Origin: Clostridiales bacterium
Lineage (GTDB): Bacteria; Bacillota; Clostridia; Christensenellales; Pumilibacteraceae
Reading direction: 5' to 3'
DNA length: 38,990 nt
NCBI GenBank assembly: GCA_022508425.1
Contig: JAFLVF010000007.1
Location: 1 to 38,990, forward strand
Under the pieces are notes generated by a model. It was not told the DNA's origin. It did not search any database and was given only the letters and a program-made list of their open reading frames with translations. Positions 33,364 through 38,454 of the stretch are shown piece after piece; the stretch's first letter is position 1, and every line of letters starts with the position of its first letter. A program made the position numbers and the translations under genes.

Positions 33364-33738
33364 TTACGTCTTTACGTCGCGCGCCGCGTGTTTGGATTTG
33401 AGAAGAGTGGCAAGCGCGGCAATGACGAGTCCGCTGTGTATCTCGTCCGAGCAGAACACCGACCCGACCAGCTCGGACAAGCGCTTTTCAAGACGCGGCG
33501 ATTGCGAAAGCGCGTACGAAATTTCGCGTATAACCGTTTTGGGCTTGAGCGAGCGGAGCTCGGCTATCGTACGGTATAGCTCGCACAAAGTATAATCGTG
33601 CGCGCCGTAGAGGACGACGGCGTCTATCAGGCGCGAAAAGCCCTTCAGATTAGCGTGAATGCCGCACTTGAGCACGAGGCGCTCGGCTTCGCGCCGCGCG
33701 GCAGGGTCGAGCGCGATGTTTGCTGTCGGAGTGTTCAT
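33364..33738 (-). CDS. Stand-alone Spo0A C-terminal-domain-like protein (no receiver)
   Basis: 124 residues from the ATG; a GTG two codons upstream is the alternative. The whole protein aligns by eye with the Spo0A DNA-binding domain: KCGIHANLKGFSRLIDAV matches GIPAHIKGYQYLREAI, and LYRTIAELRSLKPKTVIREISYAL matches LYPEVAEHFNTSPSKVERAIRHAI, covering the recognition helix. There is no phospho-receiver, so any activity would not depend on phosphorylation of this protein. It might compete with Spo0A for boxes or form mixed dimers. The promoter (TTGATT-17-TACAAT) ends only 6 bases before the ATG, implying a leaderless mRNA, and its spacer holds a consensus Spo0A box. Confidence 0.8.
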   Translation of the reverse strand: MNTPTANIALDPAARREAERLVLKCGIHANLKGFSRLIDAVVLYGAHDYTLCELYRTIAELRSLKPKTVIREISYALSQSPRLEKRLSELVGSVFCSDEIHSGLVIAALATLLKSKHAARDVKT

Positions 33739-33744
33739 GCCCAC

Positions 33745-33773
33745 ATTGTACCCCGAAATTCGACAATAATCAA
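33745..33773 (-). promoter_or_regulatory. Promoter with embedded Spo0A box, upstream of the Spo0A-C-like gene
   Basis: On the minus strand TTGATT (33768-33773), 17 bases, TACAAT (33745-33750). The spacer contains TGTCGAA (33759-33765), the consensus Spo0A box, in a position where binding would block RNA polymerase. Confidence 0.6.
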
Positions 33774-33825
33774 CACAAAACGTTCAAAACGTAACAGGGG
33801 AAACTGTGTCAAATTAGTTATAAAA

Positions 33826-33853
33826 CAAAAAGCAATCGCACATATGCGATTGC
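33826..33853 (-). terminator. radC terminator
   Basis: GCAATCGCA (33832-33840) and TGCGATTGC (33845-33853) around CATA; on the minus strand it is followed by TTTTTGTTTT. Confidence 0.85.
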
Positions 33854-33883
33854 CGAGTGTATTTGTTGCGACGGAGCGAAAAA

Positions 33884-34846
33884 TCAGAAATTCATGTCGT
33901 CCTTATCACGGTCGGTCCGAACGGCGTCGCTGTGGATTACGGCGTCCGCGAGCTCGGGCGAGCACGACGCGCCGATAATGGGCAGGAATATGTACTCGTT
34001 GTCCGCGCCCGACAGCGCCATGGAGTAGTAGCCGTAGTCGAGGAAGATCATGCAGTCGAGGAGGTTTATGTCCGTGTAGCTCAACGCGTCCTTGATGACG
34101 CGCATGCCGTCGACGGCTTTCCTGTCAGACAGAACGCCGTCGCGCTTGGCTACGATTATGCTCTTAGCTCCGTGCTTGGCCACGGAGCCGAGAATGGCGC
34201 GGACGTCGATTGACCCGGACTTTTTGACTGAGTGGCGCTCGACGGCGATTAGGCGGTAGCGCCTGTCGAGGAATGCAATGTACACACCGTCCTTTGCCCC
34301 GCCGACAAACACCGACGCAAAAAACTGCGCGGCGGCACGGGGAGATTGAAGTGCGATGTTAAACTTATGCGCGTGGATGGGTGCGGCGGCTATCAGCGGG
34401 AGCATTTCCGCCGCGGTTTTGGTCATCGAGCCGACGGCGAACAGTTCGTCCGACGAGGCGTGCAGCACGCCTGCGAGCGTACCGAATTTGTCGAGAAGCG
34501 CGTGCGAAATGGGGTTTGTGTCCTTGTACGGAATGAAGTACGACAGCAGCGTTTCCAAAACCTCTATGTCGGTGAAGCCTAAGAGATTGTCGTTGTGGAA
34601 AGCGGAGCGGCGCAGGCGCTCGCGGTGGCCGGTGTGGATGTTTTTGGGTTTAGACTGCGCGCGAGGTGAGGGGGAATAGCCGGTTTCGGGTGAAGCGGAA
34701 GCATCGCCGCCGCTTTCGAGAAAAGCGGAATACTCGTCAAACGCCTTTTGCCATTCCTCTTTGTTGCGCGCGCTCGTTATTTTGGAAAAATCGAAATCTT
34801 TGTCCGCCACAATTGCAGATTGATTTACGGATTGCGTTACGGTCAT
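33884..34846 (-). CDS. RadC-like protein with degenerate JAB/MPN domain
   Basis: 320 residues. A helix-hairpin-helix-like N-terminal part (GHRERLRRSAFHNDNLLGFTDIEVLETLLSYFIP, residues about 75-108) and the RadC-type JAB domain (YIAFLDRRYRLIAVERHSVKKSGSID) are recognisable. The metal motif of RadC, HNHPSG followed by S-x-x-D, should lie after AKHGAKSIIVA, but the sequence there is KRDGVLSDRKAVD: both histidines are gone, so isopeptidase-type zinc chemistry is not expected. Residues 1-70 are a low-complexity lead-in. The family's cellular role is unclear in general. It lies upstream of the Spo0A-C-like gene on the same strand, separated by a terminator. Confidence 0.82.
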   Translation of the reverse strand: MTVTQSVNQSAIVADKDFDFSKITSARNKEEWQKAFDEYSAFLESGGDASASPETGYSPSPRAQSKPKNIHTGHRERLRRSAFHNDNLLGFTDIEVLETLLSYFIPYKDTNPISHALLDKFGTLAGVLHASSDELFAVGSMTKTAAEMLPLIAAAPIHAHKFNIALQSPRAAAQFFASVFVGGAKDGVYIAFLDRRYRLIAVERHSVKKSGSIDVRAILGSVAKHGAKSIIVAKRDGVLSDRKAVDGMRVIKDALSYTDINLLDCMIFLDYGYYSMALSGADNEYIFLPIIGASCSPELADAVIHSDAVRTDRDKDDMNF

Positions 34847-35084: not shown

Positions 35085-35159
35085 GGCCCCGTGGTCAAGC
35101 GGTCAAGACACCACCCTTTCACGGTGGAATCATGGGTTCGATTCCCGTCGGGGTCACCA
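35085..35159 (+). tRNA. tRNA-Glu (anticodon TTC)
   Basis: 75 bases including an encoded CCA. The acceptor stem GGCCCCG pairs with CGGGGTC (one G-T). The anticodon stem CCACC/GGTGG holds the loop CTTTCAC, anticodon TTC. The T arm has GGTTCGATTCC. It is the last ordinary core gene before the A+T-rich right end. Confidence 0.95.
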
Positions 35160-35449: not shown

Positions 35450-35950
35450 ATGCAAATTAAAATTGCCATATCTGGTTATGATATGATTAAGCGTCATAGA
35501 AAAAAGGATGAAGAGATTTCTCCATTAGATATTTATAAAAGAGCTGTCGATTTTGCAACGGTCTTTGAATGGTGTGTAACGGGCGAAATGCTTTTTGTGC
35601 CTGCTTATGCAAATTTCGCATTATCTTTTGAACTGTGTTTGAAGGCTATAGCGAAAAATGAAACCAACATAATACAGTCAGGACACGACTTGTCAAAAAT
35701 CTTTTCAAAACTGAAAGAGACCACGCAAGATAATATTATTCGGAAATTCAATATTATCTTAAAACAATGTGTAAATACTGAATTTTCGACTGAGACATTT
35801 TATTCTAACTTAAAAAAGATTGCAACCACATTTTATGATTACAGGTATGAATATGAATGGGGAACGGGCAAAGGATTCATGATTAACGACTTATTTTTCC
35901 GTTGCTTTGGTGTCACTATCTTTGATTATGCAAAACAAACAATTAAATGA
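35450..35950 (+). CDS. HEPN-like domain protein
   Basis: 166 residues; AAGGAGCT lies 5 bases before the ATG. The helical protein contains NFALSFELCLKAIAKNE and SGHDLSKIFSKLKE, the paired-helix pattern of HEPN domains. The RNase-type motif R-x4-6-H of toxic HEPN proteins is not seen at its C-terminal site (DYRYEYEWG), so it may be a non-catalytic partner. It has its own terminator before the restriction-modification pair, hence a separate transcript. Base composition is A+T-rich like the genes that follow, suggesting they arrived together. Confidence 0.65.
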   Translation: MQIKIAISGYDMIKRHRKKDEEISPLDIYKRAVDFATVFEWCVTGEMLFVPAYANFALSFELCLKAIAKNETNIIQSGHDLSKIFSKLKETTQDNIIRKFNIILKQCVNTEFSTETFYSNLKKIATTFYDYRYEYEWGTGKGFMINDLFFRCFGVTIFDYAKQTIK

Positions 35951-35956
35951 TAAAAT

Positions 35957-35986
35957 ACAGCGGGATCAAACCGCCCGCTGTTTTTT
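35957..35986 (+). terminator. Terminator of the HEPN-like gene
   Basis: ACAGCGGG and CCCGCTGT (35957-35981) followed by TTTTTT. Confidence 0.85.
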
Positions 35987-36005
35987 ATCAAGACGAAATT
36001 CCAAC

Positions 36006-36034
36006 TTGCTTTTTGGGTGCGAATATGCTATAAT
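36006..36034 (+). promoter_or_regulatory. Promoter of the restriction-modification genes
   Basis: TTGCTT (36006-36011), 17 bases, TATAAT (36029-36034). It rules out a GTG start at 36017 for the methyltransferase. Confidence 0.7.
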
Positions 36035-36052
36035 ACTTTCATAGAGGCACAA

Positions 36053-37540
36053 GTGAAGCTAATTGATTACGCCGTAAGGTCAACAAAAGAATATTTAGAA
36101 GGTATGTCTAAAGCTCTTCGTAAGAAGATAGGACAGTTTTTTACAAGTAAAGAAACTGCTATTTTTATGGCGGAGTTGTTTGATATTCCGACTGACAAAT
36201 CCGAACTCTTTATCCTTGATGCAGGTGCTGGTTCGGGTATTCTTTCTATTGCACTTATCGAGAGATTGCAGAGCTACTCCACTATAAGAAAGATTAATTT
36301 GGTTTGCTATGAAAACGACCGTTCAATTATTGATTTATTGCAATCAAATTTGGCGTGGGTGCATGACAATTTAACGCTTGAATTGAATTATGAGATAAGA
36401 TTCGAAAACTATATCTTGAGCCAAGAAATGGACTTTAACTATAAATTAGGTACAAATCCTACACCTGCTAAATATGATTTAATTATTGGCAATCCGCCTT
36501 ACATGAAGTTGGCGAAAAACGCTCCCGAGTCAATGGCAATGGCAAGCATTTGTCGCGGCGCCCCCAATATGTACGCTTTATTTGCGGCAATGAGTGCTTT
36601 TAATTTGGAGCATTCAGGCGAAATGGTTTATATTATGCCGCGTTCTTGGACTTCTGGAGCGTACTTTTCACGGTTCCGTGAATACTTTTTCAGTCAATGT
36701 GTCTTGGAGCATATTCATCTGTTCATCAATAGAGACGATATATTTGAGAATGAGCAAGTATTGCAAGAAACAATAATTATAAAAGTCAGGAAAACAACTG
36801 TTTTACCTTCAGAGGTGACTATAACTACCACGCAGTCTTGCAATGATTTTTCAAATAGGACAATATTTATTGCCCCCTATGAAACTGTTGTAAGTGGTAC
36901 CGATTTTTATGTATATTTAGTCTGCAATGAAAGTGAATTGGCTACATTGGAGTTATTGAATAAATGGCGTGATACCCTCCCGAGCATTGGATTAAGAATG
37001 AAAACAGGATTGACTGTTGATTTCAGGAATCGAGAACGGTTGCGTAATGAATCCGATGAGCAAGTTGTTCCATTATTTTATCCGAGCCATATAAAAAATG
37101 GTAGAGTGCGTTTTCCGATTGGAAAAGAGAACGAATATATTGATATAAGTTGCAGCGGACTTTTACAACACAATGGTAATTATCTTTTCGTAAAGCGATT
37201 TACTTCAAAAGAAGAACATCGTCGTTTACAATGTGGTATATATCTGTGCAGGTTTTTATCCAACTATAATTACATTAGCACTCAAAATAAAATCAATTTC
37301 ATTGATGGGCTTAAAGGATTGTCTGAATGTGTGGTGTTTGGGTTATATGTACTGTTCAATTCAACACTATACGATGAATATTATAGAATCTTGAATGGGT
37401 CCACTCAAGTAAATTCTACAGAAATAAATAGCATGCCCGTACCGCCGTTAGAAATAATAGAAGAGATGGGCAAAAAATTGATTAAAATTAAAGATTTATC
37501 TGAACAAGTTTGTGATGATATTTTAAGGAGCTACCTATGA
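36053..37540 (+). CDS. Type II DNA adenine methyltransferase (BsuBI/PstI type)
   Basis: 495 residues from a GTG with AGAGG 5 bases upstream; an earlier GTG is inside the promoter. Motifs: KKIGQFFTSKETAIFMAELF at the N-terminus, the SAM motif LDAGAGSGILSIAL and the N6-adenine catalytic motif NPPY in LIIGNPPYMKLA. The later part is the target-recognition region. Enzymes of this group methylate the adenine of CTGCAG; the exact site here is inferred from the partner nuclease, not proven. It overlaps the nuclease gene by ATGA, so they are translated together. Confidence 0.9.
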   Translation: MKLIDYAVRSTKEYLEGMSKALRKKIGQFFTSKETAIFMAELFDIPTDKSELFILDAGAGSGILSIALIERLQSYSTIRKINLVCYENDRSIIDLLQSNLAWVHDNLTLELNYEIRFENYILSQEMDFNYKLGTNPTPAKYDLIIGNPPYMKLAKNAPESMAMASICRGAPNMYALFAAMSAFNLEHSGEMVYIMPRSWTSGAYFSRFREYFFSQCVLEHIHLFINRDDIFENEQVLQETIIIKVRKTTVLPSEVTITTTQSCNDFSNRTIFIAPYETVVSGTDFYVYLVCNESELATLELLNKWRDTLPSIGLRMKTGLTVDFRNRERLRNESDEQVVPLFYPSHIKNGRVRFPIGKENEYIDISCSGLLQHNGNYLFVKRFTSKEEHRRLQCGIYLCRFLSNYNYISTQNKINFIDGLKGLSECVVFGLYVLFNSTLYDEYYRILNGSTQVNSTEINSMPVPPLEIIEEMGKKLIKIKDLSEQVCDDILRSYL

Positions 37541-38454
37541 GCAAAATTGACGAAGCAAGGGAAATTCTTAAGGCACTCCAAGTCCCCTCCAAGCAATATG
37601 CTGATTTGTGTTGTTTAACTATTTTAGCTATGGCAAATATCAATGAACATGATACATGGAGCCATGCTACAAATCAATGGATTCGCATACACAATGTGAT
37701 TCTTTTTGCAAAAGAACAATATGGTAGAGAATATGCGGAAAATAGCAGGGAAACTTTCCGTAAGCAAGCCATGCACCACTTTAGAAATGCCGCATTTATT
37801 GAAGATAATGGAATGGCAACTAATAGCCCGAATTATCGCTATCGTTTGACTGATGAAATGGTTAATTTGCTGAAAAGCTATTCGTCAGATAAGTGGAATG
37901 AAAACAAGGCGCGGTTCTTGGCGAATCATGAAAATCTTATTAGTCTTTACACTTCCAAGAAGGATAAACAAAAAATGCCTGTGCAGATAAATGGAGAAAA
38001 ACTCTCTTTCTCTCCTGGCAAACACAACGAACTGCAAAAAGCTATTATTGAAGTGTTCGCTCCGCGTTTCGCACCTGATACGGAATGTTTATATGTTGGA
38101 GATACTACCGAAAAAGACCTTGTGAAAAATGAGGCGAAATTAAGCGAGTTGGGGTTTGCCATTACCTTGCACGACAAAATGCCTGATGTGGTTTTATATT
38201 CTCACGATAAAAATTGGATTTATTTTATCGAATCTGTAACATCTGTTGGCCCTATGGACCCCAAGCGCATAAAAGAAATAAGCGAAATGACGGCTAATGT
38301 AAAGGCTGGAAAGATTTATGTGACGGCGTTTTTAGATTTTAAGACATTCAAAAAGTTTTCAGATTCTCTTGCGTGGGATACGGAAGTATGGATTGCCTCA
38401 ATGCCTAATCATATGATTCATCTTAACGGCGATAGATTTATTGGACCGAGATAG
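37537..38454 (+). CDS. Type II restriction endonuclease, BsuBI/PstI family
   Basis: 305 residues. The C-terminal half carries the family core: CLYVGDTTEKDLV, KMPDVVLYSHDKNWIYFIESVTSVGPMDPKR (an acidic-x-ExV nuclease centre of the PD-(D/E)xK kind), AGKIYVTAFLDFKTFKKF, LAWDTEVWIASMPNHMIHLNGDRFIGP. The N-terminal half (about 1-140) is the helical DNA-recognition domain. BsuBI and PstI cut CTGCAG; that is a family-level expectation. It is co-transcribed with the methyltransferase and appears intact. A terminator follows about 60 bases later. Confidence 0.93.
   Translation: MSKIDEAREILKALQVPSKQYADLCCLTILAMANINEHDTWSHATNQWIRIHNVILFAKEQYGREYAENSRETFRKQAMHHFRNAAFIEDNGMATNSPNYRYRLTDEMVNLLKSYSSDKWNENKARFLANHENLISLYTSKKDKQKMPVQINGEKLSFSPGKHNELQKAIIEVFAPRFAPDTECLYVGDTTEKDLVKNEAKLSELGFAITLHDKMPDVVLYSHDKNWIYFIESVTSVGPMDPKRIKEISEMTANVKAGKIYVTAFLDFKTFKKFSDSLAWDTEVWIASMPNHMIHLNGDRFIGPR

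Follow-up and report, generated by a model that had tools for sequence, protein, structure and literature searches.

Truncated spo0A genes that encode the effector domain and lack the receiver have been reported in gut phages (Schwartz et al. 2023; PMC10294663), and their function is left open in the part of that paper used here. The Spo0A C-terminal domain (Spo0A_C) is enriched in mobile elements of gut Firmicutes, according to an excerpt of PMC6907783. Spo0A itself contacts G2, C4, and G5 of the 0A box TGTCGAA (section cited from PMC3485338). In the portion of PMC12090719 drawn on, abrB is repressed via boxes downstream of its promoter, and the effects of 0A on spo0A itself are chiefly repressive.

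The titles and abstract openings searched, a scope that leaves most subscription journals outside, yielded, among the matches listed, no description of a receiver-less paralogue of Spo0A on a chromosome or of the promoter of such a gene. Receiver-less proteins of this kind have precedent in phages; a chromosomal form with Spo0A-type boxes is, within that search, new.

A receiver-less Spo0A-fold protein on the chromosome

We analyzed a stretch of 38,990 nucleotides from a Clostridiales bacterium (hereafter, the window). It carries a small gene and the one full-length spo0A of the genome:

33364 to 33738, minus strand: receiver-less Spo0A_C-fold protein, 124 amino acids
8682 to 9410, plus strand: full-length spo0A, probable regulator of the small gene

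A sequence-only reading of this DNA had placed the small gene and its upstream promoter at these positions, matched the product to the DNA-binding half of Spo0A, seen no receiver in it, and pointed to a separate complete spo0A. We can confirm each of these points. A receiver domain found no Pfam match at E≤1 in the 124-residue protein, and an NCBIfam search likewise gave no match at E≤1; the N-terminal receiver of Spo0A (TIGR02875) is thus absent. A lack of any Spo0A_C match, which would have refuted the sequence-only reading, was not observed, though the match comes only via the family profile and the fold. The window protein scores 23.9 bits against PF08769, where the curated cut-off is 25, while 16 of 17 small-protein family members match that profile at E≤0.01 (best 6e-9), and the window protein has the Spo0A-C fold of PF08769. 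It is 27% identical to its own genome's Spo0A over 79 residues. On sequence grounds, the gene is real and conserved, and so is its Spo0A-type promoter site.

Homologues at E≤0.01 occur in 19 of 20 genomes of the genus, nine of which have two to five. A decaying pseudogene was considered and rejected: there is no internal stop in any of the 37 places with homologues, and dN/dS was approximately 0.05 to 0.14 in all seven pairs, drawn from eight close species and not including the window copy (dN 0.04 to 0.12; dS 0.34 to 1.16). These ratios show purifying selection among close relatives. When 292 genomes sampled across the class were searched at E≤1e-10, the subfamily was found in one, that of the window itself, and so looks confined to the genus. 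A profile built from alignment A1 of the family has matches at E≤0.001 in 70 of 74 genomes of the taxonomic family; outside the genus, the matches listed reach at most 43.6 bits and many are in frames of Spo0A size.

Receiver-less Spo0A_C frames as a whole are common in the order. Spo0A_C of any kind is present in 267 of 297 sampled genomes. At least one over-cut-off match in an open frame of ≤200 amino acids was found in 25 of 34 genomes, which is no frequency, as the 34 were hand-picked, partly for high match counts, and frame length is a proxy for receiver-less proteins that contig ends may affect by shortening frames. Many families within the order have short Spo0A_C proteins (L139 to L158), and the helices of several are closer to that of Spo0A. 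With 14 of its 27 inner branches open and Spo0A on a very long branch, the tree resolves too little to place the paralogues in time.

Of the 19 genomes, at least 10 have the small gene next to a divergent rplM-rpsI pair; its opposite neighbor, where the flank is long enough to show one, is hpt, pepD, or asnS (all five genes named from translations; flanks compared to locus ends, 1.5 kb in many). The window copy is flanked by radC and yetF (DUF421); L018, L023, L024, and L025 have yet other settings, and G012 and G016 have two copies in tandem. These settings show that the promoter has been retained across more than one chromosomal context.

The RadC-like neighbor (33884 to 34846, minus strand) scores 44 bits against NCBIfam RadC, for which the cut-off is 180, and matches only from residue 91 on. 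Just after a tRNA-Glu (35085 to 35159) come a weak HEPN-like ORF (35450 to 35950), an Eco57I-like N6 methylase (36017 to 37540), and a BsuBI/PstI-type restriction endonuclease (37537 to 38454); positions 35450 to 38454 are a probable restriction-modification island.

The recognition helix is altered

We aligned the recognition helix to structure 1lq1 and took the numbering from the 267 residues of B. subtilis Spo0A, which makes E213 residue 66 in the chain of 120. The helix reads S-R-V-E-R-A-I-R-H-A-I in Spo0A, K-T-V-I-R-E-I-S-Y-A-L in the window small protein, and K-S-V-M-R-E-I-S-Y-A-I in many of its relatives. In Spo0A, E213, R214, and R217 contact bases, and H218 also has a contact role. 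Among E213, R214, R217, and H218, the window small protein retains R214 alone (R71 in its own numbering), with isoleucine, serine, and tyrosine at the other three. A1 has 17 rows; by B. subtilis numbering, 16 of them retain R214, while E213 and R217 are substituted and H218 is tyrosine in every row. The window's full-length Spo0A, the one whose helix was read, keeps the four residues and has K in place of R211. The earlier view that the recognition helix was retained, so that the small protein would compete for the same boxes, is not supported, given these substitutions. They point to a changed DNA specificity: with its recognition helix changed, the small protein would recognize sites of its own and not the canonical 0A boxes.

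Tandem Spo0A-type boxes are conserved in the promoter

The region upstream of the small gene contains the following elements:

33745 to 33750, minus strand: -10 element TACAAT, 6 nt before the ATG
33759 to 33765, minus strand: spacer 0A box TGTCGAA, matching perfectly and spanning -27 to -21 relative to the ATG
33768 to 33773, minus strand: -35 element TTGATT
33769 to 33775, minus strand: degenerate 0A-like half TGTTGAT, situated 10 bp upstream of the spacer box and overlapping the -35 element
33831 to 33854, minus strand: terminator-like stem-loop after radC

Because the stem-loop separates it from radC, the small gene is probably its own transcription unit; three terminator-like sites were found in the stretch, against 1.2 expected by chance. 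From the promoter elements, transcription would start at or next to 33738 and the mRNA would be leaderless.

We read 30 loci of the 37 places. The main group, a grouping of our own choice, comprises 22: the best match from each of the 19 genomes plus L023 to L025. TTG stands exactly at -35 from the ATG in 19 of these. In 16 of the 22, TGTTG(A/C)(T/A) begins at -37 and is followed by three bases and then a box at -27, giving tandem boxes 10 bp apart from start to start. All loci with this pair, among the 30 read, fall in the main group. The -27 box is TGTCGAA in three, TGCCGAA in four, and another variant in nine; the perfect form is retained in the divergent members L004, L005, and L023, L012 has lost C4, L020 has lost the first T, and the last two bases vary. 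The TGTTGAT half-box departs from consensus at two of seven positions, and part of its conservation belongs to the -35 element that it overlaps.

L019 and L021 have no -37/-27 pair and instead carry TGTCGAANNNRGTCGAA, with the same 10-bp spacing, at -57/-47. In L022, there is one box, shifted into the -35. No tandem pair was found in L006, which has a lone TGCCGAA near -53, or in L016 and L017, and the eight divergent paralogues read (L026 to L033) have no such boxes. Thus, as expected of a Spo0A regulon, a 0A-type box stands at a fixed place in most of the orthologous main-group promoters, counting the two loci at -57/-47 besides the 16. The earlier proposal that a conserved 0A-type box ties the gene to Spo0A therefore stands; the box it named is one of a tandem pair whose partner overlaps the -35. 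A single TGTCGAA alone would be weak evidence, and it is the conserved position and tandem spacing that rule out a chance box.

Binomial tests used 14 rows, after L006, L016, and L022 (no TTG at -35) and the near-identical L008, L009, L010, L014, and L015 were dropped. At -37 the test is circular, as the -35 belongs to that half-box. At -27, where it is not, eight of 14 rows have at most one mismatch against a background of 0.6%, with related rows treated as independent.

A search of 20 genomes with the whole architecture gave 19 matches, of which 14 lie before small genes (in 13 genomes) and five elsewhere; the reversed control gave one. The pattern was drawn from these same promoters, so recovering them is unsurprising, and the informative part is how few matches lie elsewhere: one at a cardiolipin-synthase-like ORF, one at a 15-aa frame, and three at one orthologous lipoprotein-like ORF. 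Without the upstream half-box, the same genomes gave 42 matches, including the same 14, and a reversed control of seven. The spacer TGYCG is not specific by itself; specificity is gone once the upstream half-box is removed. A search for TGTNGANNNNTGTCGAA in the 20 genomes gave seven matches, three before small genes and four seemingly within coding sequence.

We also considered whether the leaderless promoter is a peculiarity of this gene, and rejected this. The looser pattern that omits the upstream half-box also occurs before ArsR-, RarA-, BirA-, and MinD-like ORFs (named from translations), a -10-like site is at the same place in three of 21 window genes checked, the small gene included, and the spoIIGA -10 is there in 14 of 20 genomes.

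Separately, a conserved AT-rich repeat like CACAAAAGCCGACAAAAAGACATAAAATG lies approximately -90 to -57 upstream of the small gene in L005, L008 to L012, L014, L015, L020, and L024. It partly resembles reverse 0A boxes and is absent from the window.

Spo0A as the probable regulator, and alternatives

We found spoIIGA in all 20 genomes of the genus. In 18, the 75 nt before its start include TTCGACA, the reverse of TGTCGAA, and one further genome has the shorter TCGACA; L133 has neither. Spo0A can therefore be taken as a working regulator in the genus. Across the spoIIGA promoters (L119 to L138), we observe a reverse 0A box near -50 and a -35 that is weak or absent. Fourteen of the 20 have their -10 positioned at -12 relative to the start; in those 14 the box is near -50, and six have a weak -35 (AAGACA). 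Thus, spoIIGA may also be leaderless in many species of the genus. While the spoIIGA box near -50 with a weak or absent -35 resembles activation, the small-gene box lies over a good -35 and its spacer, which argues for repression.

Our preferred reading is that the small gene is a chromosomal receiver-less Spo0A paralogue whose transcription is under Spo0A control, to which we assign a probability of about 0.5. Reading the sign of control from the box position alone, we infer that Spo0A binds and represses this promoter. The circuit of the sequence-only reading survives in part: the conserved box links the gene to Spo0A, while repression follows from box position and, in L019 and L021, where the boxes are further upstream, activation is likelier. 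The claim of Spo0A control is limited to the genus, because only three of 20 order-level short Spo0A_C genes (L144, L157, and L158) have the perfect TGTCGAA within 160 nt when both strands are counted.

If Spo0A does control the gene, sigma-A would transcribe it during growth as a leaderless mRNA, from a near-consensus promoter that should need no activator. Phosphorylated Spo0A would bind the tandem boxes, covering the -35 and spacer, and turn the gene off. Since there is no receiver to phosphorylate, the activity of the small protein would be set by its amount. With its changed helix it would act at its own sites, regulating during growth until its removal when sporulation begins. A broader scheme, which we regard as doubtful, is that a regulator has split into a switch made of Spo0A and a receiver-less descendant with new specificity. 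The small protein would hold the growth program, phosphorylated Spo0A would shut it off, and similar proteins across the order, exchanged with phages, would amount to a tier of sporulation control that has been overlooked.

The alternative that survives best, though we consider it unlikely, is autoregulation, in which the small protein rather than Spo0A binds its own tandem boxes and represses, and these resemble 0A boxes because the two DNA-binding domains share an ancestor. This would leave the same footprint as Spo0A control, R214 is nearly always retained, and the boxes occur in the main group and are missing from the divergent paralogues. However, the other three helix positions are substituted in every member, the perfect box persists in divergent loci, as a conserved Spo0A helix predicts, and the same box, reversed, precedes spoIIGA in most genomes.

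Spo0A might instead activate the small gene, which would then be an early sporulation gene relaying the signal. The boxes of L019 and L021 are at an activator-like place, and spoIIGA has its box near -50; however, the window and 15 other loci have their boxes over the -35 and spacer of a seemingly self-sufficient promoter, and we judge activation improbable. Much the same holds for the idea that the small gene was domesticated from phages, its ancestors being truncated spo0A genes with which phages interfere with sporulation. Besides the phage and mobile-element reports cited above, three order-level short relatives match phrog_24603 (111 positions; best E 7e-32), and a tblastn search with one of these relatives recovered 13 phage records. 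By contrast, the window protein matches this family weakly (E 0.0026, 18.9 bits, residues 17 to 76), and the chromosomal setting, beside rplM-rpsI in many genomes and between radC and yetF in the window, speaks against phage or prophage carriage. Moreover, this origin bears on descent and not on present function.

Least probable is the earlier suggestion that the small protein sits on Spo0A boxes regardless of phosphorylation, antagonizing or mimicking Spo0A: the fold is shared and isolated Spo0A DNA-binding domains bind targets unphosphorylated (as given in the cited section of PMC3485338), but the helix is altered at most expected contact positions and identity to the genome's own Spo0A is 27%, so this model should be dropped, barring binding data that revive it.

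Comparison with known systems

If Spo0A controls such a paralogue, counts of spo0A by Spo0A_C domain misread genomes, and these gut bacteria would possess a layer of regulation for which B. subtilis has no described equivalent. Anaerocaecibacter muris CLA-AA-M11 is a named strain of the genus, so tests are possible.

The small protein has approximately 20% identity to the Spo0A effector domain of PF08769 (structures 1fc3 and 1lq1), and differs from it in lacking a receiver and in its recognition helix, at E213, R217, and H218. Like PHROG 24603 and the truncated spo0A of gut phages, as far as the cited part of PMC10294663 describes them, it consists of the effector domain only; those genes are on phages, whereas the small gene belongs to a chromosomal family with conserved Spo0A-type promoter sites. 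The phage genes have in it a counterpart on the chromosome, and in about half of the genus this counterpart is syntenic.

In network position only, the small gene resembles abrB of B. subtilis, as it is likewise predicted to be made in growth and repressed by phosphorylated Spo0A. The AbrB fold is unrelated to Spo0A-C. The boxes also differ in place: those of abrB lie downstream of the promoter in the cited portion of PMC12090719, whereas those of the small gene lie over the -35 and spacer.
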